From positions 1 through 25,824 of IMG/VR virus record IMGVR_UViG_3300025769_000734: 25,824 nt of DNA; one strand, written 5' to 3'. Origin of the DNA: a virus. The position numbers and the translations under genes were made by a program. Shown one piece after another: positions 1-25,279 of the stretch; within the stretch, counting starts at the first letter, position 1, and every line of letters begins with the position of its first letter. The notes under the pieces were generated by a model, which ran no database searches, was not told where the DNA came from, and worked only from the letters and a program-made list of their open reading frames with translations.

Positions 1-1094
1 GTGCCAAGGTTGCCCTTGAACTGCTCTTCGATGGCCGCAGCCTTGTAGACCGCGTAGGCGGCTTCGAGGTCAGAAGCGCTGACGTCAGCCGGAGCGAGGT
101 AGCCCTTGGAGACTTCGCCGCTGCCGCCGGAGTTCAACTTGCCAATGGCGTTGGTGGAAGGGGAGCCGCCTTCTTGGGCGCGTCCCTTGACCTGACCAGC
201 GAAGTAGTCGGCACCGTCTCCGATGGCCTCTGGCGTGGAGCCGAGGTTGGCCTTGGAGATGCCGTCGAAGTGAGCGCGAGCCGCCATGGTGTCGACGCCC
301 TGAGACTTCAGGGTGTTTTCCATCCACGAGAGGTACTCGCTGGTGATGACGTCGGAGTAGTCGTTGGACTTGGCATACATGCCTTCCTTCTTGTCTTCTT
401 CAGCCATTTCCTTGCCTTCGTCCTTATCGGACTCGGGCTTGTCGTCTTTCTTGTCCTTCATGTCGGCAAAGGGATTTTCGCCCTTTTCCATGGCGTCAAG
501 TCGCCCGTTCAGCCGGTCAAGCACGCCGGAAAGGTCGTTCAGTACGTTGTCTTCGTTCATTGTGGTGTCCTCCTTCAGTATTCGGAATGTGGCCTCAGGA
601 TTGATGCCTTTTTCGCAAATGGTCACTTCGTGCAGTTCCAACTTCGAGATTTCGGTGTAGTCACCGTGACTGGCGTCGCTCTTGCGCATGCGCTTGAACG
701 CCTGTCCCCCGATGCTGAAGCCACGAAGAGCCCCCTTGCGAATCTCAGACGCGACTTCGCGCGCCTTCTCAATGTCGTCGCGCAACTTAATGACGACGAA
801 CATGCCGGCGTCGTCGACACCGGACTTCCAGACACGGCCATCCGAGTCCACGTAGGAAGGGATGACCTGTCCAACCTGAATGTTGGAGTGAGCGAGTTGC
901 ACGTTGCGGAATCCGTCCGCCTTCATGAAGCCGTCAAAAGCGTCACGGAGGGCACTGCGCGTGATGAGGTCGCCCTGCTTGTCCACCATTTCGACGGACG
1001 CGTAGCCAGCGATGACGAGGTCATCGGACGCCTTGAGAATGCTGATGCTCCCGCCGTGGTTGACGGCGGAGGTCCTCAGCGCGGCGGTGGCCAT
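1..1094 (-). CDS. HK97-type prohead serine protease with scaffold-like extension (partial)
   Basis: The frame starts at ATG 1094 and leaves the window at base 1 with 364 residues visible. It matches the HK97 gp4/peptidase U35 family: IAGYASVEMVDKQGDLI near the start, catalytic His69 in QLAHSN, Ser127 in LRGFSIGG and Glu156 in LHEVTI. It cleaves scaffold and capsid N-terminal regions during head maturation. After about residue 175 a helical, charged extension follows (NDLSGVLDRLNGRLDAMEKG, then Lys/Asp/Glu-rich), like the scaffold parts fused to some proteases. The remaining visible part (residues about 230-364) is also helical and acidic; it could be more scaffold or lead into a capsid protein. 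The end is outside the window. Confidence 0.88.
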   Translation of the reverse strand, partial: MATAALRTSAVNHGGSISILKASDDLVIAGYASVEMVDKQGDLITRSALRDAFDGFMKADGFRNVQLAHSNIQVGQVIPSYVDSDGRVWKSGVDDAGMFVVIKLRDDIEKAREVASEIRKGALRGFSIGGQAFKRMRKSDASHGDYTEISKLELHEVTICEKGINPEATFRILKEDTTMNEDNVLNDLSGVLDRLNGRLDAMEKGENPFADMKDKKDDKPESDKDEGKEMAEEDKKEGMYAKSNDYSDVITSEYLSWMENTLKSQGVDTMAARAHFDGISKANLGSTPEAIGDGADYFAGQVKGRAQEGGSPSTNAIGKLNSGGSGEVSKGYLAPADVSASDLEAAYAVYKAAAIEEQFKGNLG

Positions 1095-1109
1095 TGTCCT
1101 CACAACCTG

Positions 1110-1128
1110 TCGTCATTCTACTTAACTA
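1110..1128 (-). promoter_or_regulatory. Promoter-like box before the prohead protease
   Basis: The 31-base gap between the giant gene's stop and the protease start holds TTAAGTAG (1118-1125 on the minus strand), the same octamer as in the 21445-21586 spacer, flanked by a GGTAG in both places. It lies about 24 bases before the ATG at 1094, which would give a very short or absent leader. A separate strong promoter for the protease/capsid genes would make sense, since capsid protein is needed in large amounts. Confidence 0.35.
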
Positions 1129-4100
1129 CCTACGGAGGACGGCCTTGTCCTCTGTGATGTCCAAAACACCTGCTTCCGTAGGTACGCTCATACGCTTGGG
1201 AGCCTCGGAGTCCTCCGATTCTTCCTCAATGTCTTCGTCCTCTCCGGGGCGTTTTCGGTTGTCGTAGTCGGGCATAGTCTTCTCGTCGTGAAGATTGGTC
1301 GGACCCATGGGTGATTCAATGGGTGTTGCGTAGTCAAAGCCCAGACCCTTCGCGCCCGCGTTCGCAGCACCCACAGCACCAATGCTGCTCTTGAAGAGAC
1401 GGTCTACGAGTTCCAGACCTTTGACGAGCACCTTGGCCTTTTGACGGTCGTCCCACCACGAAGTGCCCTTGACCTTCTTGGGCTCAATGAGGGGTTCGGC
1501 CTCTTCTTCGGATTCATGCACCTCTTCCTTGATTTCGAGGTTGGCTTTGAGGAGTGCTCCTGCCACTGGCCCCCAGTAGGGGCGCTGACTCTCCGACAGA
1601 CGAATGACGTAGCGGTTGTCGGCCAAGGGGCTGTGCAACGTCCACATGCCGCCGGACTCTGTCGCCTTGTAGAGCACGTCGCCCTGAGGCATAACAACAC
1701 GAACGCCCGTGCTGGCTCGTTCGACTTCGCAAAGCCACTGCGGTCCAACTGACTTCGCCAACAGGCCCAGTGTTTCGCGGCTGACCAGAGGTTCGCCCTC
1801 GGCTTCGCCTTCAATCTCAGAGCCCATGATGGTGAACACGGGGTCCTCAACTGAGTTCTCAACGCGACTAACGTTGGCAACGTTGACGCGAACGTGGTCA
1901 CCTTCGTTGAACTTCTCAGAACTGTTGAACGCAGCACCCACATCCATGTATGTGTCGCCACCGGCCTCGACAGCGCGGTCCCCAATGGCCTCCTCCTGTG
2001 TGATGGGGCCAGTGCCAAGGCGATACGTGTAGGGGCCTGCGCCCCGTCGTTCGAGCACACGAAGCACTACGTCTTGTCCGGGGCGTAGCATGACCCACTT
2101 AGGATGGCGCATCTCACCGGCCATGTAGACTGACTTCGCGTCGCGCAGCAAGATGTTCTCGTGGTCCTTCTGCAACGACTCGACGGCCAACTTCAGACCT
2201 TCGTCGTCAGTCAAGCGCGTATCGCTGGCGCTCGGCGTGTGAATGTTGTCGATGCCCTCCATGCCGCCACGTAGAATCTTGATGCGGTCGTTGAGAGGCA
2301 CGTCGTGGACCTCCTTGCCGGCAAACTCAAGCACGTCGAAAATGTAGTAACTGTCTTCCAACTTGACGACATCCACCTTGTACTCGTGGTCGGTGACTTT
2401 CTGGAAGTTCTCTTTGTCCTCGTCGGACAGCGAGAACGTCGACGTGATGTCGTCGTCATCGTCCTTCTCAACAAAGCCTCGCTCGCCTTCCGGCATGTGC
2501 GAGACAATCCAGTCACCCGTGAAACCGCGCAGATGCTCCAAGTCCTCCAACTTGAAGATGCGGTGCATTGGCTGAAGCAAGGGGACCTTCGGACCCAACT
2601 CTTTGCGAAGAATGTCCGGGTTGGTCAGGTCGGCCAGTCCCAACTCAGACTTCACGACGTTCGTGCTCCCCTGATGACGCGTGAGCCCAGTTGACGTTGG
2701 CTTCGTATGAGCAGCCTGTCGTTCAAGCGTGTTGAGTGCTGCACGGGCACCAGCATGGTCAGGATGCTTCAGCATGTGCATCCATGCGGCAGGGGCGACG
2801 GCATTCCAAATGGTTTCCGTGGGCTGGACAAGGCGCATGGGGATGCCCTGCGCACTCGGCATAATGCTGACCTCACCGTCGAATCCGATGCGGAAATTGA
2901 AGTTCGGATGGAACAGGTCGCCGTATTCGTGCGCCAAGCCCGAAGAGTTGTACAGGCTGTGGACCGAGTGCCCGTGCGGACCCACCGCATCGACCGGCAC
3001 GGGTGCCCTACCGCGCTTCGTTTCCGTGACCGACGAAGCCGCCTCGACTTCGGGCAGGAAGGTGACGAGGCTGTCGAGATGCTGCTTGGTGTTCCAATAC
3101 TTGCGCTCACGCTGGTTGCCGCCGCCAGCAGGTTTCTTGGTCAGAGGTTCGGATTCACTACGCCGTGAGTCCGCGTTATACGCCTGTGTGAACTGCATGC
3201 CCAACTGCTGATTGCGCTCGTCTGCCTGATAGCCGATGGTGCGGTGAACGCGACCGACGTCCAGTTGCACGTCCATGGCAGCACGCTGCTTCCTCATCTT
3301 CTCGGCCTCGGCAGCGATGTCGCGGTCAGGATGCAGTTTCTCCATCAACTGGCGCACGGACATCACAGGTGCAGGCGGCAGGCCTGCAATCGCTCTTGGA
3401 AGAGCAGTCTCTGCAAGGTAGTCGATTGCGACCTGTTGACTGTGTCGAGAGTTGGGGTCTAAGCCAAGTCGCTCAAGCAATGGCTGTGCGTGATGCTTCA
3501 TTTCTGAAACGCGGGCTTCTTCTCCACGCGTGAGAAGAGGAGTGATAACGCCAGTCAAGTAATCGAAAGCCGTCTGACGGTGAATTGGATTTTTGGGGTC
3601 AATGCCGAGTTGTGCACACATATCGTCGACCAGTGACTTTTCGCTTCGGTCTCCCGGCAACTGGTACGGCTTACTTTCAGGGTGCTCTGCAATTTCAGAA
3701 GAGGTGAACTCGAACGGCTCTCCATGCTCATGCCCAAGGCTCTTGATTTCATGACCGAGGTCAGCGTGCCGCTTCTGTCCCACCTCATGCTCGGTCGTGC
3801 CCATGGTGTGGATGCCGTGCGTTCCATGAGGAGCAGCGTGAAGGAACTCGTTGCCCATGCGAGCCAGCATGCGCATGTTGGCCTCGACCGTTTCGTGAGG
3901 CAAGTTGGGGTTGAGGATATGGTCCCGCGTTTCGGGGTCCATGCGGTCGACGATGTGTCGCACGGCTTGACCGATGGCGTGGTCGTCAGCACGGAGCCGG
4001 TCGGCAAGAGTGTTGCGCTTCAAGCCTACCTTCTTCGTCGAGTCGCCCAGTGCCCCAGACATACGAGAGCCACCTTCAGACAGACCTGTTTCGAGGCGAG

Positions 4101-8204: not shown

Positions 8205-9941
8205 TCAGGCCCCCCGAGGGCGGCGAGCATCAAGGATGCTTTGACCGGCCTGTTCGACGCCTCCCATAGGAGCGCCTCGTTGCTGAACGCTGGAGAAAGG
8301 AGCGCCTGCACCCATGCTGGTGCGGTTCTGTGGACTGGCGGGACCACGGTTCCTCATACCGAAGCCCTCGCCGCCGGGATTGGCCATGCCGGGAACCCGT
8401 GCCTGACGCCCCATTTGGGCGGCGAGTTGCGGCGGGATGTTTCGGCTGGGCAAGGCTCCGGGCGTACCCATGCCCCCGCCCATCTGCATGCCGCCCATGG
8501 GCTGACCTTGAGGCGGAGGCTGAGCGCCCGGCTCAGGTTGCTTGTAGATGAAGCGAATGTCGCGGCTGGCATCTTCGACGAGCGTAGGCTGGTAGCCCAT
8601 CATCATCATACGCTGTGCGATGTTGACTTCCATCTCATCACGGCGAAGGCGAGTAACCTCGTCTTCTTCTTCGTTGGGATAGAGGGTCAACTTCCAGTCG
8701 CTGACGTCCATTTGCTCGACCATGCGCGGGAACAGATGTTCGGTGTAGACCTTGTGACCGAACTCGACTGCGCGATTGGTGACCAGAATCTGCATACCTT
8801 CGTTGTTCAGACCGCCAGACTTTCCGGTGTCCATCATGAACACGTTGGACACGCCGTAGAATGCAGCAATGCGCTGACGCATCTCATCACGTGCAGGGAT
8901 GTATTGCATCTCCTCCAACGAATCCATCAACTTGACCCAGTTCACACCACCCTTTCCGTTGCCTTCTGTCGCAATCTTGGGGATGTAGTGCGGGTCACGC
9001 TCCAACTTCTCATCTGTCGCCTTCCAAAACGACTTCATGGATTCGAGGTTCTCAGTGGTGATGCTCAGGATGCCGCGAGGGATGCGGCGCTTCGAGTAAG
9101 CCGTGTACATGTAATTGTCCATGGCGGTCAGCGTCATGGCCTGTCGCCAGAGCGTCGAGACGGGACTGCGCCCGTAGAGTTTCGACGGCTGGTATTTGCT
9201 GACGTGAATGACTTCGCCTTTGAGGTAATACTGCGTCTTGCCGCTTCCAGCCGTGTTGACGTGATGCACGTCTTCCATCTCAGTGCCGCACGTCGGACAG
9301 AACTTGTCGTCCTCCGAGTAAGCCTTGACCTCGGTGCGGTGAACGGGGCAAACGCGGAACCGCCCACCACGAACGCCGCGCTTGTCGGCAATGATGCGCA
9401 TGAAGATAGGGTCGCCGCGCACGACTTCCTTGATGCGGTAGAAGGCCATTTCCTTCGTCTCGGGGTCGATGAAGTATTCTTTGATGAGGACGAGGAAGGC
9501 GTCGTCGGTGATGTTGAGGTCGTACTCAATCTCGCGCAGCACATCCATGAACGTCTGCTCCATGGAATTGCGCTGGTCAAGCAGCCACCTCGGGTAGACC
9601 AGTTGGTCAGGCTCAGGGTCGCGCACTTCTCCACCACATTCAGTGCACATTTCGACATCATGCTGATGCTCTTTGTCGCACTCCACACACTTCTTGTGGA
9701 ACTTCTTCTCCCAGCGATAACCACGACGGAAGATTTCCTGCTGAAGCGTACTAAGCACCGTGCGAAGAATGAGATTCTCGTTGGCCACAGCATAGAGTGC
9801 GGGGATGGTGATACCTTGCACAAGGACAGGCTCTTGGATGCCCGTGGTCCACAGAGGCATCTGGGGTTCAGGCGTCGTCCTACGACGGAAAGGTGCGCTC
9901 ACAGATTCGAGCAAACGGCCGACGCGACTTTTCTCTGCCAT
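8205..9941 (-). CDS. Portal protein with two inserted zinc ribbons
   Basis: The ATG at 9941 (TGATG overlap, GGAGGG upstream) gives 578 residues. The core shows portal features: KLYGRSPVSTLWRQA (about 246-260), a long helical stem region, and an IAAFYGVSNVFMM segment typical of phage portals (HK97/SPP1-like). It forms the ring at one head vertex through which DNA enters and leaves and on which the terminase docks. Two zinc ribbons are inserted: C85-x2-C88 with C99-x2-C102, and C198-x2-H201 with C215-x2-C218. These are not part of the usual portal fold as I know it. The C-terminal 120 residues are Gly/Met/Pro/Gln-rich and probably disordered. Confidence 0.88.
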   Translation of the reverse strand: MAEKSRVGRLLESVSAPFRRRTTPEPQMPLWTTGIQEPVLVQGITIPALYAVANENLILRTVLSTLQQEIFRRGYRWEKKFHKKCVECDKEHQHDVEMCTECGGEVRDPEPDQLVYPRWLLDQRNSMEQTFMDVLREIEYDLNITDDAFLVLIKEYFIDPETKEMAFYRIKEVVRGDPIFMRIIADKRGVRGGRFRVCPVHRTEVKAYSEDDKFCPTCGTEMEDVHHVNTAGSGKTQYYLKGEVIHVSKYQPSKLYGRSPVSTLWRQAMTLTAMDNYMYTAYSKRRIPRGILSITTENLESMKSFWKATDEKLERDPHYIPKIATEGNGKGGVNWVKLMDSLEEMQYIPARDEMRQRIAAFYGVSNVFMMDTGKSGGLNNEGMQILVTNRAVEFGHKVYTEHLFPRMVEQMDVSDWKLTLYPNEEEDEVTRLRRDEMEVNIAQRMMMMGYQPTLVEDASRDIRFIYKQPEPGAQPPPQGQPMGGMQMGGGMGTPGALPSRNIPPQLAAQMGRQARVPGMANPGGEGFGMRNRGPASPQNRTSMGAGAPFSSVQQRGAPMGGVEQAGQSILDARRPRGA

Positions 9942-11248
9942 CACAGACCCTCCGCCCAACTCATGACCGTATCACGGTCGACTCCCCATTCTCGCAACGA
10001 GTCCTCACCTTTGGCAGTTCCGTCTCTGTTCGAGAACTGCACAAAGCGCTTCAACTGCGTTTTTCGCACGGGGTCCTTCTCACCAATGTAAGCCATCACA
10101 GCCTTTGCCTGCATGTCTTTCATGCGCAAGTGAGGGGTGATGCCGTCCAACAACTTCGCAAGGTCGTCCTTCGCGTAGAAACTGACGCGATGCTGACTCC
10201 GCTGAGTGTCCGAGTAGACCTTCTGGTCCAATTGCAGGATGCCGGCTCCAATGTTCTTGTGCAACTGTTCGCAGTGCATGCGCCCTCGGTCGCCCGTAGC
10301 GATGAAGCCGGCACGCGGTTCGCCGCGCTCAGTGATGGTGATGTAGCCGTCAGCGTCAAGGAAGCCCGCGGCGTAGGCCCATGGGTCCTTGAGAATCAGA
10401 CCGTCACGGGTCATGGAAATGAACTCGCCTCGACGATGGCCCTTGACGATGTTGACCTCCTCACCATACATGTTGAGCAACTTGGACAAACGACCAGCCG
10501 TGATGCGACTGACGCCTTTCTCGACGAGGTTGCTGGTGATGGCCCGAGCCGTCATGGCCCCCTTCTCGTCAATCTCAGCCTTGGCCATGTGCATCCACTT
10601 CTGCTGCTCCTTGGTCAGAGAGTCAAATTGGTGCAGCGCAGTGCGCCACATCTTGCGAGCATCTTGCTTCTGCTGCATGGCTCCAACCCACGCCTGTCGC
10701 TCCTCTTCACCCCAGACGTCAGCGAACTCATCCAACTTCTCCAGCGCATCCTCGGCCGCCTCCCAGACGTTGCAGGCTCGAACGAGACTGGACTTGCGGG
10801 TGTTGCCGAACAAGCGCAACGAGCGCAGGTCCTTGTTGGACAGCCCCATCTTGCGCATGGTGTCTGCGTGCGGTACGGCCCAATCGAAGAGGTGTAGCGT
10901 AGCCTCGACTTCTGTTCCCTTGAGTGTACGAATACCCTGAATCAGCGCATCAATTTCGTCTCTGTCGTCTTTCATCACCCGACGCGCCTTACGCAAATCT
11001 CGAATGATGGACGATGCACTCTTACCGAGGCGGTCCTCGAACCAGCCTTCGCCAGTCGGTGAAAAGGGGGCATACTGTGGTGTAGGTGCAGGCTCTCCCG
11101 TGACGATGACGGTCTCCGAAGCAATGGCTTTGGCAATGTCGCCGTCGACCAGAGGGTGTGCGGTCAGGCTGGATGCGATGGTCGACAGAAGGTCGTGACC
11201 CATGTCGATGTGTTGGGTTGGACCCCCTACGCTCAGACTCGGCCACAT
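9941..11248 (-). CDS. Winged-helix plus LAGLIDADG-domain protein
   Basis: This 435-residue protein lies between terL and the portal gene; GAGGGAG precedes its ATG. Residues about 1-225 are mostly helical and unrecognised. Residues about 226-285 look like a winged helix (ARAITSNLVEKGVSRITAGR then a strand pair). Residues 294-301 read AGFLDADG, a LAGLIDADG motif with its acidic residue, followed by YITITERG and a pattern fitting one LAGLIDADG fold to about residue 400. A single motif means it would act as a dimer, as homing endonucleases of this type do. No intron or intein surrounds it and the frame is continuous with the long N-terminal part. It may be a domesticated nuclease working with the terminase, like HNH proteins beside terminases in other phages (inference). 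Confidence 0.75.
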   Translation of the reverse strand: MWPSLSVGGPTQHIDMGHDLLSTIASSLTAHPLVDGDIAKAIASETVIVTGEPAPTPQYAPFSPTGEGWFEDRLGKSASSIIRDLRKARRVMKDDRDEIDALIQGIRTLKGTEVEATLHLFDWAVPHADTMRKMGLSNKDLRSLRLFGNTRKSSLVRACNVWEAAEDALEKLDEFADVWGEEERQAWVGAMQQKQDARKMWRTALHQFDSLTKEQQKWMHMAKAEIDEKGAMTARAITSNLVEKGVSRITAGRLSKLLNMYGEEVNIVKGHRRGEFISMTRDGLILKDPWAYAAGFLDADGYITITERGEPRAGFIATGDRGRMHCEQLHKNIGAGILQLDQKVYSDTQRSQHRVSFYAKDDLAKLLDGITPHLRMKDMQAKAVMAYIGEKDPVRKTQLKRFVQFSNRDGTAKGEDSLREWGVDRDTVMSWAEGL

Positions 11249-11276: not shown

Positions 11277-12755
11277 TCATACCGTGAACCACGCGCCAGC
11301 GACCCTGCGAGAGGGCACGTCACCGAACCAGTCGTCAACTCCGTCGAGGTAATCGTCGAGCATTACGATGCTGCCCTTGAACTCCTTGGTCGCCCAATTG
11401 GCCAGTGCGAGGCTGACGGCCAAGTCGTCGTGCGAACCCACGGACTCCATGCGCCCGTTCTTCTGCATACCGAACCGACTCAGTTCTGTCTCAAGCGTGC
11501 GCGTGAACTCCTTGCTCCGCTCATCGCCCCACGGGGTCTTGATGTGGCCCTGCTCAAACGCCATGAGCAGCGACATGAACATGCTCTCCTTCTTCTGGCG
11601 CGTCGTCATGAACGTCTTGACGGGGATGTCTTCGCGCATGTCGCGCAACTCTGCCTCGAACATGCGCTGGAAGTTGTTGCCTTCCAACTCGATGAGGTCG
11701 GGTTGGAAGCGGTTGTTGAGCATGATGATGTGACGCTTCTGCGCCGTGCTGTTCAGCCCCTTCTGATGGACGACGTGCACGATTTCCTTTCGCTCGCTGC
11801 CCGGAGGCATGCGCATGACGGTCATGGCCGTGTAGTCGGCGTTCGAGTCGCTGGCGATGGCGGGGTCCCAGCCGATGAAGTGCTGACCAAACAGGCCACT
11901 GGCTTCGCCTTCCTCGTCGTACTCGTTCTCGGCTCTGTCCATCAGGAACAATTCTGAGTCGCGCGCCTTCTCCAGCAGCGTCATCGGGAACATGCTCGAC
12001 ATGTCGTGAATCGGCTCGCAGAGGTATTCACGTGCGAACTTGATGGCGGGCATGGACTCCTCACGCTGCTTGAGGGCGTCAAGCGGCCATCGGTTTGGCC
12101 AGAGCGGTTCGCCGTTGGGCAGAATCGCCGGATAGGTCTCGACGGTGAACGTGTCCTTGTCCTCCAACTCAGCATACAGGTCGTTGTACGAGAAAGGTGT
12201 GCCGACCATCATCAGTCGACCCGTGTGGTGCAACACAGGAAGCAGAACGGTGTAGAACCAGTCAGCCGCACGCTGCAGTTCAGAACTGGTCGTGCCCCAC
12301 AGAATGTCGTCGCAGACGACCACGTCGGGGTGGAAACCACGGGTTGCACCGCCCACGGACTTGGCCATGATACGGCTGCCGTTGGTGAACTCGAAGTAGG
12401 ACTTAGCCCACGGCTTGCCCGCAGGCTTCAGACCCTTGAGGATGTCCGAGGACTCAATGTTGTTGCGAATGAACCGCATGTGTTCCAGCGTCTGCTCCAG
12501 CGAGTGGGAGAAAATCATGACGTGCGTGTTGGGCTTGAACGCCGCCAACCAGAGTGCGTAGGACATGAAAAACACGGACTTGCCGTGGTCACGGCTCGCT
12601 TTCACGCAGTAGTAGCGGTGTTCGTTCAAGCCCTTGAGCCAGTCTTCGTGATGAGCGGACAACTCGAACTCCAGAATGTCCGTGAAGAAGTACGCGAAGG
12701 ACTTCTTGGACATCTGCGTGTCCATGTCGTGAATGAGGTTGTTGACGTCAGCCAC
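11277..12755 (-). CDS. terL: Terminase large subunit (ATPase and nuclease)
   Basis: This 492-residue protein is the DNA-packaging motor: its ATPase drives DNA into the prohead through the portal and its nuclease cuts the concatemer. The ATPase part shows a terminase-type Walker A, ASRDHGKS (53-60), a Walker B, VVVCDD (145-150), and the coupling motif MMVGTPFSYND (182-192). The RNase H-like nuclease shows D297 in IGWDPA, an acidic LIELEGNNFQ stretch (355-363) and SHDDLAVSLA (441-450). Length is normal for the family. It starts at GTG 12755 with GGTGA just upstream and overlaps nothing. The gene after it encodes a LAGLIDADG protein, then the portal. No intein is present. Confidence 0.95.
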   Translation of the reverse strand: MADVNNLIHDMDTQMSKKSFAYFFTDILEFELSAHHEDWLKGLNEHRYYCVKASRDHGKSVFFMSYALWLAAFKPNTHVMIFSHSLEQTLEHMRFIRNNIESSDILKGLKPAGKPWAKSYFEFTNGSRIMAKSVGGATRGFHPDVVVCDDILWGTTSSELQRAADWFYTVLLPVLHHTGRLMMVGTPFSYNDLYAELEDKDTFTVETYPAILPNGEPLWPNRWPLDALKQREESMPAIKFAREYLCEPIHDMSSMFPMTLLEKARDSELFLMDRAENEYDEEGEASGLFGQHFIGWDPAIASDSNADYTAMTVMRMPPGSERKEIVHVVHQKGLNSTAQKRHIIMLNNRFQPDLIELEGNNFQRMFEAELRDMREDIPVKTFMTTRQKKESMFMSLLMAFEQGHIKTPWGDERSKEFTRTLETELSRFGMQKNGRMESVGSHDDLAVSLALANWATKEFKGSIVMLDDYLDGVDDWFGDVPSRRVAGAWFTV

Positions 12756-16968: not shown

Positions 16969-17670
16969 TCACAGCAAATCGAGGATGTCCTCGTCGACGT
17001 CTCCGCCCCCACTGGCCAGCAAACTGGCCTTCACGCGCTTCCACACGTCAGGACTCTCCTTACCGAGTTCCACCTTCAGCACATTGATGGTATTATTGGC
17101 GACATTCGTCGTCGGCTCAGCCCATTTCTCCTGATACATGCTCAGGTCCTTCAGCGTCTCGCGGACCTCTTTGTGCAGGCGCACCATGTCGCCAATGACG
17201 CCATCGTCATGGACACTGCTCTCCTGCATGAACTGAGCCAACTTACCGTTGAGGTTCTGGACGTTTTCACGCAGGATGTCGATTTCCTGACCCGCGCTGA
17301 TGGCCACGATGGCCGCGGAACTTTGCTTGACGAGCGGCTGGAAATGCTGCTTCATGTGGCGGTAGACCGCTTCTTCACTGCACTCCAGTTCAGCCGCGAT
17401 GTCCTCAGTGGTCCGCTCGCCCTCGAAGTATGCGACCTCCAGCATGCGTCGGTCATCGTCCGTGCACACGGCGCACGAATGGTTTGCCCCCACGTGATAG
17501 TCGCCCACGTGGTTGCGCATATGCCGCTCGGCTGTGTTGGCTCGCCAACCCATGTCCTTGTCCATCACGCGAACGTCTGCAACACCGTCAATGATGTTCT
17601 GTTCCAGCGTTTCACGGTCACCGTGCTGGCAAAAAGGGCAGGACCGCTTGTTCTGTCGCCCAGCCCCCAT
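16969..17670 (-). CDS. Candidate small terminase: two zinc/HTH repeats plus coiled coil
   Basis: This 233-residue protein has two copies of one module at identical spacing: C11-x2-C14-x35-H50-x3-H54 and C66-x2-C69-x35-H105-x3-H109. Between the cysteines and histidines each copy has a helix-turn-helix-like stretch (second copy: TTEDIAAELECSEEAVYRHM). A helical region with coiled-coil character follows (residues about 115-190), then a C-terminal segment and an acidic end (DVDEDILDLL). DNA-binding head plus oligomerising helix is the layout of small terminase subunits, and the gene opens the operon containing the large terminase. It is three genes away from that gene, so a transcription regulator is the main alternative. 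The Cys/His pattern is certain; the role is inferred. Confidence 0.6.
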   Translation of the reverse strand: MGAGRQNKRSCPFCQHGDRETLEQNIIDGVADVRVMDKDMGWRANTAERHMRNHVGDYHVGANHSCAVCTDDDRRMLEVAYFEGERTTEDIAAELECSEEAVYRHMKQHFQPLVKQSSAAIVAISAGQEIDILRENVQNLNGKLAQFMQESSVHDDGVIGDMVRLHKEVRETLKDLSMYQEKWAEPTTNVANNTINVLKVELGKESPDVWKRVKASLLASGGGDVDEDILDLL

Positions 17671-17773
17671 GCGTTACGCCACGACCTTGGCCATCATAAC
17701 GGTTTTCAAGGCGGGGACCTTCCCTCCGACGATGCGTCTACCCCGCGCTCAACCCCGAATCCGAGGTGTTCCG
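17671..17773. promoter_or_regulatory. Divergent spacer between the packaging operon and the plus-strand gene
   Basis: These 103 bases separate a minus-strand start at 17670 from the plus-strand start at 17774. Any promoters for the two divergent genes should lie here. I see no convincing TATA-like box; the only AT-richer patches are near 17694-17708. The plus strand has GAGGTG at 17763-17768 as a ribosome site. Promoter function is inferred from gene orientation alone. Confidence 0.25.
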
Positions 17774-18013
17774 GTGTCCATCGAGACCGCGAGAAGCCTC
17801 AGCAAGGCTGCACGAGACGTGGTCTTGCGACGACGTGTGCCCGAGATGGTGCAGACGCAGCGTCTTGAAACGTGCCGTGCGTGCCCCAGTTGGGACGCCG
17901 TCTACAGCCGTTGCACAGAATGCGGTTGCCAGATGCGCGTCAAGGCTGCGCTGTCGTCAAGCGAATGTCCACTCAAAAAGTGGGGGCCTCATATCTCGGA
18001 AATCCGAGAGTAG
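17774..18013 (+). CDS. Cys-rich small protein, the only plus-strand gene
   Basis: A plus-strand frame carries a clear cysteine pattern: C34-x2-C37 (CRACP), C47-x2-C50-G-C52 (RCTECGC), K57, and CPLKKW at 65-70. CxxCP...C..CGC...K...CP..KW is a known small zinc-ribbon pattern in phages (DUF6171-like, from memory). The GTG at 17774, with GAGGTG five bases before, gives the usual size of about 80 residues. Upstream ATGs at 17669 and 17732 are alternatives, but the sequence before the GTG has no family features. The minus strand here has no credible gene from 17671 to 17988. Its 3' end overlaps the end of the membrane-protein gene on the other strand. Confidence 0.65.
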   Translation: MSIETARSLSKAARDVVLRRRVPEMVQTQRLETCRACPSWDAVYSRCTECGCQMRVKAALSSSECPLKKWGPHISEIRE

Positions 18014-18228
18014 ATACCGCCGAGCATGAAGAACGCACCGAAAAGACCGGCCACCAAGTAAGCCATGGTGTCGCTGTTGAGTTGTGCTGAGGCCAGCAAA
18101 AGGATGGCGCCGAGTGCGACAATGATGGAAAGCAACTGTACCATCACCATGTCGATGATGACGCTCTTCACGGGAGCGAAAATCTCCATGGTCGTCGACG
18201 CGAAGCCATACATGGAATCCTGAATCAT
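17989..18228 (-). CDS. Two-span membrane protein (79 aa)
   Basis: The ATG at 18228 overlaps the preceding stop as TGATG, after GAGG. The product is almost entirely hydrophobic: spans at about 22-49 (possibly kinked) and 55-73, with a short loop (QLNSDT) between them and a polar end (YSRISEI). Size and topology resemble small phage holin-like or membrane-pore proteins, but no lysin gene is seen near it and no motif proves the role. It is the last gene of the membrane/GTPase unit, and its end overlaps the end of the plus-strand gene by 25 bases. Confidence 0.6.
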   Translation of the reverse strand: MIQDSMYGFASTTMEIFAPVKSVIIDMVMVQLLSIIVALGAILLLASAQLNSDTMAYLVAGLFGAFFMLGGIYSRISEI

Positions 18229-18869
18229 CACCTCATCCCCATCATTTTGCCCATGAAGGTGCCTGCAGCACCACCAGCCTTGTCCATGAATCCGTCATTG
18301 GCCAATGCAGCGCTCAGAGCGCCACCCATCATGCTCTGCTGAGCAAAGGCTGCAATCTGCTGCTGCTGCATCTCAGCCTGCTGAATGTTTTGCTGACTGG
18401 TCATCTTCAACGAGTTGAACTGACTGGTGACGTTTTCTGCGCTCATGGTCTGCAAATTGGATGGAAGGCTCGTGATGTCCATTTTCATGGAGCCCTCGTC
18501 TTCATCAATCGTGAACACAGCGTTCTTGAGGATTTCAAGAACCGAAAACGACACGAGGTCATTGAGCATCTGGAGCAGGGTTGCCATACTGGCACCTGCA
18601 ATGAAGCGGTCGATGGGGGCGAGGGTGCGCATCAGCGCCATCTGAATCTCCATTTCGCTTGGAGGAGCCATGGGCTGTTGCATCATTCCCGGCTGCATGC
18701 CCATACCGCTGGTCATACCGCCCATAAACGCGTTCTGCTGCGCCTGCTGCATCATACCGCCTTGGGGTGCAAATGGGTTTCCGAAGGACTGTGAGCCTGC
18801 CCCAGACTGAGGCATGCCACCACTGGCACCCAAATTGAGTGCGCCAGAGTTCTGCTGATTACCAAACAT
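18228..18869 (-). CDS. Met/Gln-rich protein (213 aa), unrecognised
   Basis: ATG 18869 is preferred because GGGAGGCGAT lies six bases before it and the preceding gene stops just upstream. The first 70 residues are low-complexity Gly/Met/Gln/Pro. Residues about 72-135 form a compact domain with helices (RTLAPIDRFIAGASMATLLQML) and a strand pair (AVFTIDEDEGSMKMDI). A Gln-rich helix and a Gly/Ala/Met tail ending GKMMGMR follow. Low-complexity ends around a small folded core are common in virion assembly proteins. The stop overlaps the next start as TGATG. Function unknown. Confidence 0.6.
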   Translation of the reverse strand: MFGNQQNSGALNLGASGGMPQSGAGSQSFGNPFAPQGGMMQQAQQNAFMGGMTSGMGMQPGMMQQPMAPPSEMEIQMALMRTLAPIDRFIAGASMATLLQMLNDLVSFSVLEILKNAVFTIDEDEGSMKMDITSLPSNLQTMSAENVTSQFNSLKMTSQQNIQQAEMQQQQIAAFAQQSMMGGALSAALANDGFMDKAGGAAGTFMGKMMGMR

Positions 18870-18882
18870 TTCATCGCCTCCC

Positions 18883-19890
18883 TTACTGCGTGAACAGCCC
18901 CGGCTCACTTTGAGGCAGTTCGGCCTGACCCATAGAGGCTTCGACGACAGGGTTCCCCTGCACTACGCTGGGATTAGGATGCTGCATGATGCCCAGATTC
19001 GTGATGGCGTCGGACAACTGTGGCCTTGTTGCCAGCACTTCTTTTTGGAACAAGCGAAGGTCAAACACAATCATGGTCACGTCATTGATGCCCGTTTCTG
19101 GATTTTGGTAGTGAAGAAGGTTGATGCCCGGTTGCACCTTGGAATCCTTCTCCAGTTCCATGAAGAACGGCTCGTACTTCTTGAGAAACTCAGGCGTGTT
19201 GTCCTTTTTCTTGACTACGGCGATTGGTACGGCCACGGTCGAAACACCTTTCTTGACCATTTCACGCATACCTGTCTTGGTCTTGTTGTGGTCCTTGTCG
19301 TTCTCAGCCTCCCACTTGCACAGCAGATGGTAGAGATGCAAGTGCTCAGGGCAGTACGTACCTTTCATTTTCTGCCCGTTGGTGACTTTTTCTCGGGCCA
19401 CAAAGGGCTCAGGCGTTTGCGTGACGGGGTTGCGCCAGTAGAGTTCCCACAGGCTCTTGCTTGTTTCCTCATCCGTAATTTTGGCATACAAGTTGTCGTA
19501 CTGAATGAGTTCTTCGCAGTTGCAGCCATCGACCACGCAGAGGTTGCTCTGTCGATTGTACCGATACTTGAGGCCGCCCAGCCACCGTAGGGGATTGTAC
19601 CACGGACGCTTGGTCGGTTTGAGCAACTTCCGTGCTTGACGAATGTCTTGCTTGCGAGCCTTGCGAGGGTCAGGATGTCGGCTGGGGTAGAAGTTGACCT
19701 TTGGCACCTCGATGTTCTGCTTGCCCGCCATCTGACGCATACCCTGCTGAGCGGCCTGCATTTCCAGCAACTGTTCATGACTCGCATTCCCCTGTTGACT
19801 CAGCGCCACCAAGTGCGCTTGACTCATCGTCGCAAGCCCTGCATCGTTCTGCGGCACTTGCCCATAACCCCCAAATCGCCTTCCAATCAT
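18883..19890 (-). CDS. Unrecognised 335-aa protein with Cys/His metal-binding region
   Basis: ATG 19890 is chosen because AAGGTGA lies five bases before it and the GTPase stops 11 bases upstream; the longer frame would overlap the GTPase. The protein has a Gln/Ala/Met-rich N-terminal helix (residues 15-60), a very basic segment (RHPDPRKARK to YRYNR, 71-112), a Cys/His group (C118, C123, C125, C180, H183, H185, H188, C191) and an alpha/beta C-terminal half with VTMIVFDLRLF. The Cys/His set probably holds one or two zinc ions. Its position directly after the GTPase makes it a candidate partner or effector. No family is recognised. Confidence 0.65.
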   Translation of the reverse strand: MIGRRFGGYGQVPQNDAGLATMSQAHLVALSQQGNASHEQLLEMQAAQQGMRQMAGKQNIEVPKVNFYPSRHPDPRKARKQDIRQARKLLKPTKRPWYNPLRWLGGLKYRYNRQSNLCVVDGCNCEELIQYDNLYAKITDEETSKSLWELYWRNPVTQTPEPFVAREKVTNGQKMKGTYCPEHLHLYHLLCKWEAENDKDHNKTKTGMREMVKKGVSTVAVPIAVVKKKDNTPEFLKKYEPFFMELEKDSKVQPGINLLHYQNPETGINDVTMIVFDLRLFQKEVLATRPQLSDAITNLGIMQHPNPSVVQGNPVVEASMGQAELPQSEPGLFTQ

Positions 19891-19901
19891 TTCATTCACC
19901 T

Positions 19902-20624
19902 TTACGTCGTCAGGAGTTCCAACATTGAGTTTTCCACGTTCCAACCAATGCGCGTCGCCATCATTCCCCTCTTCGTAGGAATCCCCGCCTTCTGAAGGCG
20001 GACGAGGTCTTCGCGGAATGGGTCATACATCTTGTGCTCCCCAAGCCGCTGTTGCTGCCATAGAACGTTCGCTTGGTCGTCCCACCATTGGTCGGCTTTG
20101 TTCGCCACGAGCATAATGACTTTCGGAACATACTTCTTCCCCTTGAGCCGCGCACGGATGTTTCTGTAGCGGTATTGACGGTGAAGCACAGCATCAACGA
20201 GGTATTTGAATCCGCCAACGGCTTGCACCGCGGGGTCACCACCTTTCGCGCTGCGATGGTCAAAGAGAAACACAACTGATTCGACTTGACGGTTGACCAT
20301 GTCGTCAATCCAAAGATTCCAGAACCGCTCTTCGCCTCCGATGTCGCTTGAGTACACGACACGCGTGTCGCCCTTGTATGCAACTCGCTTTCTGGTCGGA
20401 GAAGGGAGCAGAAAACGATTGATACCGGGCACCTTGAAGTGCTTGGTGCGCTCTTCAATGGGAATCTCCTCCATCTCTCCGGGGGTCGTCATGTATCGGT
20501 CGAGGGTCGTTTTGCCCACCATAGGGGGGCCGTATATGCCGACGCGACGTGGCTTCCAGTAGTGCCACAGTTCACGGGCGAACACCATGCCGCCGACGAG
20601 GGCCGTGCCTCCAAGTGCCGTCAC
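19902..20624 (-). CDS. Arf/SRβ-like small GTPase with N-terminal hydrophobic anchor
   Basis: The 240-residue product starts at GTG 20624 (GGAGG seven bases before). Residues 3-16 are hydrophobic and may anchor it to the membrane. The P-loop is GPPMVGKT at 32-39. Switch II is DIGGEERFWNLW (D94-x-G96-G97), very close to the DVGGQ...LW of Arf, Sar and SRP-receptor-β GTPases. The guanine-specificity motif NKAD is at 175-178. Glu98 stands where Arf proteins have the catalytic Gln, so intrinsic GTP hydrolysis may be slow or differ. The G5 motif (ATR) is weak. Such GTPases recruit partners to membranes in a GTP-dependent way. In a viral structural operon, beside three membrane proteins, this is unusual. 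The GTPase identity is well supported; the role is not. Confidence 0.85.
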   Translation of the reverse strand: MTALGGTALVGGMVFARELWHYWKPRRVGIYGPPMVGKTTLDRYMTTPGEMEEIPIEERTKHFKVPGINRFLLPSPTRKRVAYKGDTRVVYSSDIGGEERFWNLWIDDMVNRQVESVVFLFDHRSAKGGDPAVQAVGGFKYLVDAVLHRQYRYRNIRARLKGKKYVPKVIMLVANKADQWWDDQANVLWQQQRLGEHKMYDPFREDLVRLQKAGIPTKRGMMATRIGWNVENSMLELLTT

Positions 20625-20625
20625 G

Positions 20626-20883
20626 TCAGTTCCTCCATGAAAAGATGCTGTCCGACCAAGACCTCAATTTCTCTTTCAGCCAGTCACCCGTGACTTCCCA
20701 CAGGCTCCATTCACTGTAGAACTCGATGCCGCTGATGGTGAAACCGGTGATGATGGAGAACACAATGGCCTTGAGCCAGCCCCAACCGCGCTCGTAAGCC
20801 ACGTCAACCGTGTTGGCGATGTGCATGCTGCGCAGCGTCTCCTCGACAGCGTCGTCCGACGGCGTCTTGAAGATGCGCCCCAC
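20626..20883 (-). CDS. Small single-span membrane protein
   Basis: The GTG at 20883 is the likely start: GGAGTGATG lies just upstream, and the nearby ATGs are in another frame. The 85 residues comprise an acidic/helical N-terminal part, one membrane span at about 37-53 (LKAIVFSIITGFTISGI) and a Trp-rich C-terminal helix (WSLWEVTGDWLKEKLRSW) that could lie on the membrane surface. The stop lies one base from the GTPase start, so the two are probably made together. No family is recognised. Confidence 0.6.
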   Translation of the reverse strand: MGRIFKTPSDDAVEETLRSMHIANTVDVAYERGWGWLKAIVFSIITGFTISGIEFYSEWSLWEVTGDWLKEKLRSWSDSIFSWRN

Positions 20884-20889
20884 GCATCA

Positions 20890-21444
20890 TCACTCCTTCT
20901 TCTTGAACTTCCCATCGGGTCCGCGCTCAGGCTTTGCTTCTTCTTCGGGCTGAAAATCAAGTCCGAGGCTCAGAGGGGCAGTCTGCTTCGGCTCTTCAGG
21001 AACAAAGTCAACCGTCGAAGGCGCTCGTCCGGTCAACCTTGCCTCAATCCAAGGAGGGGTCTTGCCGGGATTTTTCTCCATCCAACTGAGTTCAGCCTCC
21101 AACTGGGCCTCTTGCATGCGCATTTCCATGTCTTGACGGCGGCGGTCAAAGGTCATCTCCATCGAGCGGTAGCGGTTCTTGCGCTGACGCTCCATGGCAG
21201 ATGCACGTGCACGCTCGTCCATGCCCTGTTGAAAGAACATCTTGAACAGGTAATAGGCCAGACCCTGTACAGCAAAAGCCGCCATGGCGTAGGTTACGCC
21301 GTTCAGACTGGGCTCATCCAGTTCAAGCCAGATGCCTGCATCGAAGATGGCAATGGCCAGTCCAATGGTGACGGCTTGGGTCAGAATCAGACCCATCAAT
21401 CGGATTTCTGCTTGGTCTGCGCGCGGTGGTTCGAGGTTGCTCAC
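20890..21444 (-). CDS. Two-span membrane protein with basic coiled-coil tail
   Basis: This 184-residue protein starts at a GTG with GGGGGAG upstream. It has two predicted membrane spans, residues about 16-38 and 49-70. A long charged helix follows, rich in Arg, Gln, Met and Glu (residues about 74-125, with RRRQDMEMRMQEAQ), and a Pro-rich acidic tail ends GPDGKFKKKE, a closing pattern often seen in phage structural proteins. The loop between the spans is short, so both ends should lie on the same side of the membrane. It is the first gene of its transcription unit and is followed by another membrane protein and an Arf-like GTPase. Function unknown; a membrane platform for the GTPase is an inference from position. 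Confidence 0.65.
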   Translation of the reverse strand: MSNLEPPRADQAEIRLMGLILTQAVTIGLAIAIFDAGIWLELDEPSLNGVTYAMAAFAVQGLAYYLFKMFFQQGMDERARASAMERQRKNRYRSMEMTFDRRRQDMEMRMQEAQLEAELSWMEKNPGKTPPWIEARLTGRAPSTVDFVPEEPKQTAPLSLGLDFQPEEEAKPERGPDGKFKKKE

Positions 21445-22934: not shown

Positions 22935-23517
22935 CTTCGACAAGGACAAGGTAGGTGGGGTCAATGAGGGTTTCGGACTTAAGCGTCCCACGTTCCTTGA
23001 AATGTCGGGCTCGATTGGTGTGCGGGTCCTCAGCAACGAGCGTGCCTCGCTTGGTATGGCTCATGTCGGGGCCACCTTTCCCCTCGATACCCCGCTTTCG
23101 ACGCTCGCGCTTGAGGTCTGAGCGATACTTGACGCGCTCTGGGGTGGACTCGTACTTCGTGTCGTACTCCAACTTGTGACGCTTGGCCTCAGGCGAAACC
23201 GGATTCTTCAGGACGAGCACGCCCTTGACGATGGTCGGCTTACCGCCGACACCTTGCTTCTTGGACCGCTTACGTTTGGTCGCCGCACGCTTCTGACCTT
23301 CGCTCATCGAGCCACTGGTCTTCGGGGTCTTGTCGCTGACCTTGACGGACGGACGGCACTTTGGATAGCCCTTGCTGCTTGTCTTGGCCTTTGAACGACC
23401 ACATGGCGGATGCTTGCCGTCCTTGTCCTTACGACTGACGTCGACCCACTTTTCCTTGAACCAGCGGTTCAAGTCCTTCACCACGAGGGTGTCGTAGCAG
23501 GTGCAGCGCTCGGTCAT
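22915..23517 (-). CDS. DUF5872-like basic protein with an HNH-like second half
   Basis: This is a 200-residue basic protein. After a CTC cluster (C5, C7) and a helix comes WFKEKWVDVSRKDKDG, then PCGRS, KGYPKCRPS and the basic MSEGQKRAATKRKR. That order (EKWVD, PCGR, YPKC, then a KRK helix) matches my memory of the DUF5872 family of marine viruses. Residues about 112-172 form a second module with YESTPERVKYR, a Gly-rich turn, DMSHTKRGTL and NRARH. It resembles HNH-nuclease-derived domains but has Ser where many have Asp before the His (D-x-S-H), so catalysis is doubtful. Both ends are coupled: ATGA at the start and a 20-base overlap with the next gene. Confidence 0.7.
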   Translation of the reverse strand: MTERCTCYDTLVVKDLNRWFKEKWVDVSRKDKDGKHPPCGRSKAKTSSKGYPKCRPSVKVSDKTPKTSGSMSEGQKRAATKRKRSKKQGVGGKPTIVKGVLVLKNPVSPEAKRHKLEYDTKYESTPERVKYRSDLKRERRKRGIEGKGGPDMSHTKRGTLVAEDPHTNRARHFKERGTLKSETLIDPTYLVLVEDGRRSA

Positions 23518-23726
23518 TCTTCACCCGCCCATGCGTCGCATACGTGGTCAGCCTTGCACATGAAATCGTACCACTCGCAATATCCGGTCGTGGGGTCATC
23601 CGACTTGGATTCATCCCACGCCTTGCAGTTACCACACCGCTCAGAACCTGTAGCCTTGCGGTAATTCGGAGCGTCCTCTTTCCCCTTGAGGATGCGCCAC
23701 GCATGCTCCATGGCTTCAGGGCTCAT
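23514..23726 (-). CDS. Cys-rich small protein with N-terminal AW..LK motif
   Basis: This 70-residue protein starts in an ATGA overlap with the preceding gene. Residues 2-14 are SPEAMEHAWRILK, the motif also seen at 24300 and 15824. The rest is a four-cysteine module: C31-x2-C34 (CGNC), C50 in GYCEWYDF and C63 in VCDAW, plus an extra C57. The order CxxC...GxC...VCDAW resembles small cysteine proteins of phages related in pattern to HiPIP-type iron-sulfur domains. Whether it binds zinc or an Fe-S cluster cannot be told from sequence alone. It ends in an ATGA overlap with the next gene. Confidence 0.65.
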   Translation of the reverse strand: MSPEAMEHAWRILKGKEDAPNYRKATGSERCGNCKAWDESKSDDPTTGYCEWYDFMCKADHVCDAWAGEE

Positions 23727-23917: not shown

Positions 23918-24303
23918 CAGTTCCACCTCCTGAGAGCCGCACCCTTCGGCGTCAACTTACCACCCTTGCTCGTTGGGCCCTTGACCCCGCTCATACGAGC
24001 GCAGAACGACTTGCGGCGCTTGGCCTTCTTTGAACCGGGCTTCAGTTTGCTCGGCTTCGTCGTGACCGGGGGCTTGAGATTGGCGCCCTCTTCGCGCTTG
24101 GCCTTGGCGCGACCTTTGGCATTCAGACCACCTTTACGGTGATGCTTGTTCGGGTTGTACCCGTGAAATGGCTTGGACTTCTTCTTGGCCTTGAGTACAG
24201 CCAGCGAAAGTTCCAGCGGCGAGCAGCAGTCGCAGAAGGACACGTCAGACCAGTCTGTCTTGCCGACAACGTCAGCCTCGGTCAACCATTCGACGTCACT
24301 CAT
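23914..24303 (-). CDS. Lys-rich protein with C-terminal FCARM...ALRRWNC motif
   Basis: From the ATG at 24303 (ATGA junction with the gene before, GGTGA six bases upstream) the product is 129 residues. The N-terminus is acidic and holds a CDCC cluster (C24-C27) followed by a short helix. The middle is strongly basic with many Lys-Gly stretches. The last 31 residues read KSFCARMSG then a Gly/Lys loop and ALRRWNC. From memory this closing pattern (K-S-F-C-A-R ... A-L-x-x-W-x-C) is a recurring small domain in phages and large algal viruses, often beside the domains found in the next genes; an exact Pfam number should not be taken from this entry. The charge suggests nucleic-acid binding, possibly as a virion component. 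Biochemical role unknown. Confidence 0.7.
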   Translation of the reverse strand: MSDVEWLTEADVVGKTDWSDVSFCDCCSPLELSLAVLKAKKKSKPFHGYNPNKHHRKGGLNAKGRAKAKREEGANLKPPVTTKPSKLKPGSKKAKRRKSFCARMSGVKGPTSKGGKLTPKGAALRRWNC

Positions 24304-25142
24304 GCACTCACCGCCTTCAGCATGCGCCACGCAAGGTCCATCGGTTCACCCGTCTGCACGTCTCCACCTTGCTCACGTAGGAAGTTGGCAATCAAGATGT
24401 CGCGGATGTGAGGTGGCATGGTGTCGAAGCCGGGAGGAGTGCTCATACCCTCTGGGGCAGGCGTCCGCTCTGGTTCAGGTGTCGCTGGCACGGCCTGCGC
24501 CACGGAGGCGACAGCGGTGCCAGCACCACCAACAGCAGTCGGTGAAAAGTTGAATCGTGCAGGGAGTTCATCCTGCAACTCGCGCGGGTACACTCTGGGC
24601 TTCATTTGCCCTCCTTCGGGAACAACGTGAATGGTCTGACGGTCGCTGGCACCGGTCCCTCCGATACCAGCGCCTACCGTCAACAGCCCAACCTTACCGT
24701 TTTCATGCTCAGCAAAGACAGGTGAGAAGATGTGAGAAGCATCCCCTCGACCCGTTGGCTTCGACGTCACAAACATGTCGAACATCATAGCAGGCTTCGT
24801 CTTTCCGTGCTTTTTGTCCGGTGCGAGAATAGGGGTGCGCAAAGCCTTCGGTAACTCTGGATGGTTGGAAAGGACGTCGTTGAGCATGAAAAGCGCCACC
24901 TGTTCAGGCGTGAAACCCTTGAATCCTTTGGGCATCTCTTGGTTTGGATGAAACCGCTCGTTTCTGCGCTGCACGTAGTGTGGGAGAGCGTCCCGCGAGA
25001 TGTGCTCCAACTCATACGGTCTTTTCTGATACTGCTTCATCCGGGCAAGGAGGTTCTTGATGTACTCCGGCGAGTGGTCCTTCAGAAACGAGAAGTCCTT
25101 GAGCAGAAGCCACGCCGTATCAAGGGCATGGCTGGCGCTCAT
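24300..25142 (-). CDS. Unrecognised 280-aa protein with AW..LK motif at both ends
   Basis: The ATG at 25142 is preferred because it forms an ATGA junction with the frame upstream. A longer version from 25211 would overlap that frame. The protein opens SASHALDTAWLLLKDF and closes with a similar motif, GEPMDLAWRMLK, just before its end. Between them are a basic N-terminal helical region (residues about 15-65), a mixed alpha/beta centre with a Gly-rich loop (VGAGIGGTGASD), and a Pro/Ala-rich linker near residues 205-245. It has no membrane segment and no cysteine motif. The repeated motif also occurs in the genes at 23514 and 15824, which suggests a shared binding or incorporation signal. A virion-associated protein is the best guess; no family is recognised. 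Confidence 0.7.
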   Translation of the reverse strand: MSASHALDTAWLLLKDFSFLKDHSPEYIKNLLARMKQYQKRPYELEHISRDALPHYVQRRNERFHPNQEMPKGFKGFTPEQVALFMLNDVLSNHPELPKALRTPILAPDKKHGKTKPAMMFDMFVTSKPTGRGDASHIFSPVFAEHENGKVGLLTVGAGIGGTGASDRQTIHVVPEGGQMKPRVYPRELQDELPARFNFSPTAVGGAGTAVASVAQAVPATPEPERTPAPEGMSTPPGFDTMPPHIRDILIANFLREQGGDVQTGEPMDLAWRMLKAVSA

Positions 25143-25279
25143 GCTTCGCGCACGCTCACACTCAGGAAAAGTGTTGGGGTGGTCGACGAACCCCCAAGAG
25201 GTGAAACGCACACAAACCCAAAAAGCGCGAGGAAGTTGGCTCGTCGACCAGACTTTCGTAGCGGACTACCGTATTTCAT
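25139..25279 (-). CDS. 46-residue coupled peptide with hydrophobic segment
   Basis: A 46-residue frame begins MKYGSPLRKSGRR and continues with a hydrophobic stretch (ANFLALFGFVCVSP) and a Ser/Thr/Gly-rich tail. The basic start followed by about 14 apolar residues looks like a signal or anchor sequence. Its start overlaps the zinc-ribbon stop as ATGA, and its own stop overlaps the next gene's ATG as ATGA, so it exactly fills the space between two credible genes. That arrangement is the main evidence that it is translated. No homologue is recognised. The alternative is a short spacer. Confidence 0.4.
   Translation of the reverse strand: MKYGSPLRKSGRRANFLALFGFVCVSPLGGSSTTPTLFLSVSVREA

Follow-up and report, generated by a model that had tools for sequence, protein, structure and literature searches.

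The GTPase gene and its neighbours

The window, by which we mean the whole 25.8-kb linear IMG/VR record analysed here (25,824 nucleotides), is a fragment and carries on its minus strand a gene for a Ras-superfamily small GTPase of 240 amino acids (19902..20624, GTG start, end including the stop codon). A Shine-Dalgarno-like GGAGG lies 7 nt 5' of the GTG, within the 3' end of the upstream gene, which itself stops one base short of the GTPase ORF. That upstream gene encodes an 85-aa protein with one hydrophobic segment (20626..20883, minus strand; median gap to the GTPase 1 nt) and is preceded by a gene for a protein of 184 aa (20890..21444, minus strand), which has a charged C-terminal part besides two hydrophobic segments and whose resemblance to SLATT_4 is weak and sub-threshold. 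Directly downstream of the GTPase lies the gene for a 335-aa Cys/His-containing protein (18883..19890, minus strand; start at 19890 as in its orthologues), followed by those for a 210-aa Met/Gln-rich protein of no recognised family (18228..18860, minus strand), an 80-aa, holin-sized protein with two hydrophobic and probably transmembrane segments (17989..18231, minus strand) and a candidate small terminase subunit (16969..17670, minus strand; sub-threshold matches to HTH and terS families). This last, terS-like HTH gene marks the beginning of the packaging genes. The window also encodes the large terminase subunit (terL; 11277..12755; phrog_38, E 1.6e-62), the portal protein (8205..9959; phrog_18178, E 7.5e-67) and the head maturation protease (3..1103; phrog_23555, E 3.3e-14), which runs off the window. 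All three are likewise on the minus strand, in agreement with the earlier note, which had located the GTPase within a viral structural operon.

The arrangement from the 184-aa gene through the 85-aa gene, the GTPase, the 335-aa, 210-aa and 80-aa genes to the terS-like gene is collinear and on one strand wherever the genes are present (150/150 loci), with median gaps of 1-9 nt as far as the 80-aa gene. All seven genes were found together at 108 of the 150 loci, the rest being mostly cut by contig ends or missed in the search. Three of the GTPase's neighbours in this block contain hydrophobic segments. The 335-aa protein yielded no recognisable fold (its AF2 model has a pLDDT of 68, and its fold matches do not exceed Z 3.3), and the other neighbours gave only sub-threshold matches that we judged to be chance (SLATT_4, Vp25_capsid, T7_gp14, CxC6); none of these neighbours has a recognised function. 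Nothing in the block was recognisable as a GEF, as a GAP or as a partner of the roadblock/MglB kind, and profile searches of the block proteins gave no roadblock/MglB match, the neighbours being divergent enough to hide one; the prokaryotic GTPase MglA is encoded near MglB/roadblock genes (PMC4316618). A role in defence or counter-defence was set aside as no meaningful PADLOC match was obtained. Sigma-70 promoters were not found above chance, as expected of an archaeal virus.

A small Cys-rich gene lies on the opposite strand (about 17700-18013, plus strand) inside the operon, which otherwise runs on one strand, with a DUF6171-like match below the cut-off (E 0.0013) and an orthologue in a related contig (L037:13353-13634, minus strand). 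In three relatives (L035, L036 and L037) the GTPase and the 335-aa gene are separated by an insertion of 0.6-1.06 kb, which in L037 comprises small ORFs, two of them starting with an AWxLLK motif and one AbrB-type DNA-binding-like by eye.

G motifs, conservation and fold of the GTPase

The ORF is a genuine small GTPase, with each of the five G motifs in place. The P-loop (G1) reads GPPMVGKTT (residues 32-40), G3 lies in the stretch DIGGEERFWNLW (residues 94-105) with the core DIGGE and Glu98, and G4 is NKAD (residues 175-178), all as the earlier note had described; a plausible switch I Thr60 within RTxH and a G5-like ATRIGWNVE (residues 223-231) were found in addition. The Ras-superfamily motif order, namely GxxxxGK[ST], DxxG and NKxD, is thus seen on a predicted G-domain fold. 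The window sequence alone found no match above the cut-off in Pfam, PHROGs, NCBIfam or the PDB, its best NCBIfam match being small_GTP (TIGR00231, E 0.0083, below cut-off). Among 43 relatives, models of Roc, Arf, Rag and Ras recur at weak E-values (best Roc, E 0.0012), and no single member of the family, window and 43 relatives included, attains a curated family cut-off.

IMG/VR scans with three GTPase seeds, limited to the best 80 loci each, returned 133, 142 and 125 confirmed stretches. The relatives from all three seeds form one family with at least about 54% identity, and no more distant relatives emerged from these three queries. Across 149 GTPase loci (this and the other locus sets include some contigs fetched twice, and the loci counted therefore outnumber the viruses), GKTT, the switch I RTxH, DxGG, W-[NS]-L-W, ANKAD and ATx[IV]GW are invariant, save for an Ala at the third position of DxGG in 10 loci and one truncated row. 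Such invariance in homologous loci means that the motifs of the ORF are not a product of chance. At the 108 loci with all seven block genes, the GTPase has the lowest dN/dS (0.047, vs 0.068-0.11 for the other block genes) and the highest mean pairwise identity (66.5% vs 40-57.5%). It is present in every locus with room for it, whether loci were ascertained by the 335-aa neighbour (77/77) or by the large terminase (27/27). The GTPase is a core gene of its virus lineage, under strong purifying selection, and probably a late gene.

The residue following DxGG, position 98, is the exception to this constancy. It is Gln in 85 of the 149 loci, Glu in 51, Asp in 11 and His in 2, and among 56 non-redundant sequences 32 have Gln and 24 Glu or Asp. 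On a tree of these 56 sequences with site 98 masked, four label changes are counted, at least two of them forced by well supported branches. The earlier note had taken a Glu in place of the catalytic Gln as a hint of unusual hydrolysis. The substitution is real in the window, but Gln is the commonest residue and the site has changed about four times on the tree, so that Glu98 represents a recurrent local state and not a rule, or trait, of the family.

AlphaFold (AF2) modelling from a 43-sequence alignment gave a structure with the strand and helix order of a G-domain (pLDDT 71, pTM 0.73), in which the switch regions are the least certain part. With this model, Foldseek retrieved 920 PDB chains at E <= 0.001, small GTPases throughout among the matches listed; the profile and structure searches that the earlier note had proposed thus led to small GTPases, and the predicted structure does contain a G-domain. 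An unrelated P-loop ATPase was rejected, AAA_24 and Sak4 matching only around the P-loop at E 0.08-0.1 and the fold being that of a small GTPase. Motifs, invariance across the 149 loci and predicted G-domain together bear out the original reading of a G-domain GTPase.

The placement of this GTPase within the superfamily is less clear-cut. In structure alignments, where Z differences under 1 are ties, the best scores were obtained with Arl8b (14.4), Arf1 (13.7) and the group of Arl1, Arf6 and Asgard ArfR1 (13.1-13.3, with ArfR1 at 13.3), with Asgard RagA at 13.1 and Rab at about 12-12.6. For profile comparisons we used 27 small GTPases from one Asgard MAG and Era/Der/MnmE domains from two others. 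Against the 27 Asgard proteins together, hhalign gave the viral family a probability of 98.0% (E 1.6e-12), compared with 0.04-0.07% in control comparisons with unrelated viral alignments including terminase. By group, Rab/Ras reached 97.7%, Arf 84% and the bacterial Era/Der/MnmE domains 68%; size-matched Rab/Ras subsets scored 38-63 vs 36 for Arf, and the two best single-sequence profile matches were Asgard Arfs (12.3 bits). In a 47-row tree the viral clade falls next to Rab/Ras on a branch of 5.8 substitutions per site, and AU tests reject no Arf, Rag or bacterial placement of it. The proposed assignment to Arf/SRbeta is therefore not borne out in the form given: structure alignment slightly favours Arf/Arl while profiles favour Rab/Ras, and the reference panel contained Arf but no SRbeta. 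An Arf affinity by tree with archaeal (here Asgard) GTPases was not recovered, the clade's neighbour being Rab/Ras and none of the Arf, Rag and bacterial placements being rejected.

Like Arf/Arl and Asgard ArfR, the viral protein combines a G-domain (Z 13-14) and the DxGGQ-x5-LW spacing of switch II with a hydrophobic helix before the P-loop and the lack of a C-terminal cysteine; it differs from them in that residue 2 is not Gly, its Arf profile score lies below its Rab/Ras score and the tree does not join them, and it exceeds the Asgard Arfs by 18-19 residues in switch I and by 18-22 in the G3-G4 stretch. With Asgard Rab/Ras it shares the best profile match (97.7%), tree neighbourhood and, in Gln-bearing relatives, a GQERF-like switch II, whereas the absence of a prenylation cysteine, the two insertions, the 5.8-substitution branch and the hydrophobic N-terminal helix set it apart. 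Both insertions are present against every Asgard relative measured: the G1-G3 distance is 62 residues vs 43-49 (a switch I insertion of 13-19 residues) and the G3-G4 distance 81 residues vs 57-63 (an insertion of 18-24 residues, holding the conserved basic stretch YRYR...KGKKY). These insertions mark a divergent branch of Ras-superfamily GTPases. As to lipid anchors, the Gly2 that is myristoylated in Arf-type proteins is replaced by Thr in the window and, in most relatives, by Ser, Thr, Val or Ala, and the C-terminus reads ELLTT, a C-terminal Cys for Rab/Ras/Rho-type prenylation being absent in the 42 relatives inspected. The hydrophobic N-terminus pointed out in the earlier note is real and family-wide, but the short helix is of borderline hydrophobic character (Kyte-Doolittle mean of 1.22 over the best 19 residues) and has a low amphipathic moment; it is a possible transmembrane or amphipathic anchor.

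A magrovirus-like lineage and the rarity of its GTPase

The larger relatives of the window provide the clues to its identity. A family-B DNA polymerase (PolB) is encoded in 23/23 large relatives (79,956-118,155 bp), and in one of these (G006) the best phage-collection matches of PolB are haloarchaeal tailed viruses. The same relative carries a Cpn60_TCP1 chaperonin (E 4.8e-125), whose best PDB matches are archaeal group II chaperonins (thermosome), as well as an ERCC4 nuclease. Magroviruses (Magrovirales, viruses of Poseidoniales) have genomes of 90-110 kb (PMC12999244) and a published list of replication genes (PMC10160649), and a thermosome-bearing clade is described among MGII viruses (PMC5332604). 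They resemble the family described here in size (about 80-118 kb here), PolB, group II chaperonin, ERCC4 nuclease and tailed-virus morphogenesis module, and differ in that no GTPase is mentioned for them in PMC10160649, PMC5332604, PMC5628999, PMC8651126 or PMC12999244. On the strength of PolB, thermosome, ERCC4 and genome size, we assign the window to a magrovirus-like tailed virus, with marine archaea of the Poseidoniales as the probable hosts; the assignment, made by gene content and genome size, is well supported if not proven. In two further relatives the PolB match is spread over two separate frames of 471 and 349 aa (G013:C1:29184-30328, plus strand; G014:C1:73771-74918, minus strand), representing a split gene or an interrupted frame.

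A conserved-peptide scan of 84,980 species genomes returned only three contigs (L082, L083 and L084), binned in MAGs of Maricaulis, an Asgard archaeon and Cytophagaceae. Host assignment from these matches was rejected, for they are mutually inconsistent, carry the viral block and are best taken as misbinned viral contigs, which likely represent contamination of these public genomes. No tRNAs were found for host assignment.

No comparable gene surfaced in the catalogues of bacterial and archaeal viruses that we searched (PHROGs and INPHARED). In tblastn against 50,697 INPHARED phage records no relative was found even at E 10, bar one partial match (31% identity, E 0.9) covering a third of the GTPase, and comparison of PHROGs with canonical Arf and Rab proteins of Asgard archaea brought up no small-GTPase family. 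These results sustain the view that small Ras-superfamily GTPases are unusual in head-tailed viruses. The literature searched, which did not take in the Philosof 2017 description or the Prabhu 2025 survey, such that an earlier mention in a supplementary table is possible, contained no report of a small GTPase in a magrovirus or tailed prokaryotic virus. Where BFVD matches carry an organism name, those listed are from giant viruses of eukaryotes. The Rab/Ras proteins of Pithovirus, Klosneuvirus, Bodo saltans virus and others are likewise virus-encoded and have the same fold (BFVD), but their genes are annotated as host-type, whereas the GTPase described here is a core gene in the structural operon of a tailed archaeal virus, with no close cellular homologue found. 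Among prokaryotic GTPases, Group 1 of the Rup family likewise lacks the G3 Gln (PMC4316618).

Possible roles in late infection and further features of the late genes

We favour, with a probability of about 0.5, a reading in which this divergent Ras-superfamily GTPase, encoded by a core late gene of thermosome-carrying, magrovirus-like tailed viruses of marine archaea, is a membrane GTP switch in late infection. Ras-superfamily switches are a hallmark of eukaryotic membrane trafficking and are abundant in Asgard archaea. By analogy with the family, and from motifs and fold, the viral protein would bind GTP, cycle as a switch and coordinate Mg2+ through Thr39 and Thr60. The N-terminal helix and the membrane-protein neighbours suggest that it works at a membrane: the short hydrophobic helix, the co-encoded proteins with one and two hydrophobic segments, or both, would hold it at the host cytoplasmic membrane, where its switching would depend on GTP. 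When GTP is bound, partners could dock on the enlarged switch I and on the basic G3-G4 insertion; the first to consider are the 335-aa Cys/His protein and the 210-aa protein. Such docking would organise a late-infection step at the membrane, for which head assembly and egress are the most likely choices; the place of the block in front of the packaging genes would suit either, as a positional guess. Recruitment of proteins to the host membrane, as suggested in the earlier note, would be plausible given the N-terminal helix and the membrane-protein neighbours. GTP hydrolysis would probably be assisted by a partner, for the gene is retained while its catalytic position drifts among Gln, Glu and Asp, a drift suggesting that hydrolysis is not tied to one intrinsic residue.

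The same operon context could speak for a component of the virion. The GTPase and its hydrophobic neighbours would then be packaged, internally or near the portal, for use when the genome is delivered: the membrane segments would help DNA through the archaeal membrane, and the GTPase would set the time of this step. The block does lie in the structural operon beside the terS-like, terL and portal genes and is conserved very strongly, like structural genes, and one member of the 184-aa family matches the ejected protein T7 gp14 at a sub-threshold and probably chance E of 0.0074; the GTPase itself shows no homology to capsid proteins, however, and GTP would not be renewed inside a virion, such that we regard this role as unlikely. 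Somewhat less probable again is a switch directed at the host, which would enter its small-GTPase or membrane network and remodel the cell by mimicking or titrating one of the host's GTPases. A Ras-superfamily fold close to Arf/Rab and the host-like Rab/Ras genes of eukaryotic giant viruses are compatible with such a role, but the sequence is not host-like (the 84,980-genome peptide scan returning only contigs in inconsistent MAGs), the viral GTPase sits on a very long branch, and its gene is locked in the virion operon instead of an early or auxiliary region.

The replacement of Gln98 by Glu or Asp in nearly half of the non-redundant set (24/56) could alternatively reflect loss of hydrolysis in a plain assembly factor that does not cycle and in which the nucleotide stabilises the fold. 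To such a scaffold the (nearly) invariant switch II, DxGGx-x-R-[FY]-W-N-LW, and switch I RTxH would be needless, and position 98 changes only among Gln, Glu, Asp and rare His; we give it a low probability. Equally low is that of a GTPase-gated egress cassette, in which the 80-aa and 184-aa proteins would be holin-like and the GTPase would time or place their action at the archaeal membrane. The holin-like reading is prompted by the location of two small proteins with two hydrophobic segments before the terS-like gene, as lysis genes are found before terS in lambdoid phages. Lysis genes usually diverge fast, and the strong conservation of the GTPase therefore argues slightly against a lysis timer; if true, the cassette would be a release mechanism of a kind undescribed in prokaryotic viruses.

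Under the favoured reading of a membrane GTP switch, the presence, throughout a widespread lineage of archaeal tailed viruses, of a small GTPase that is tied to membrane-protein genes and under the strongest selection within its block would imply a conserved, GTP-controlled step of virion building or release. The gene gives a concrete way into a group of viruses that metagenomes alone have revealed, and it adds to the diversity known among small GTPases of prokaryotes.

Other features of the late genes deserve mention. A short motif, approximately [PM]-x-x-x-AW-x-[LFI]-[LI]-K, recurs at the N- and C-termini and internal junctions of many late proteins, its core pattern occurring 27 times, where shuffling of the proteins leads one to expect 3.0 occurrences, with a maximum of 8 in 200. 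In the window it is found in the minus-strand genes at 23514-23726 and, at both ends, 24300-25211. In relatives it occurs at L152:9916-11207 and L155:12347-14429 (both minus strand), at the C-termini of L158:286-5784 and L159:1169-4209 (both plus strand) and in three internal copies in L037:6092-8932 (plus strand); it may be a capsid-targeting, scaffold-docking or protease-linked tag. Adjoining the head protease gene, a 1966-aa ORF (1126-7026, minus strand) contains an ATP-dependent DNA ligase/nucleotidyltransferase domain at about residues 1540-1645 (PF01068, E 2.5e-7), an unusual find within a cluster of head genes. One relative carries, close to its GTPase block, a candidate auxiliary metabolic gene for an HMGL-like (aldolase-type) enzyme (L155:11308-12153, minus strand; Pfam E 3.4e-19).
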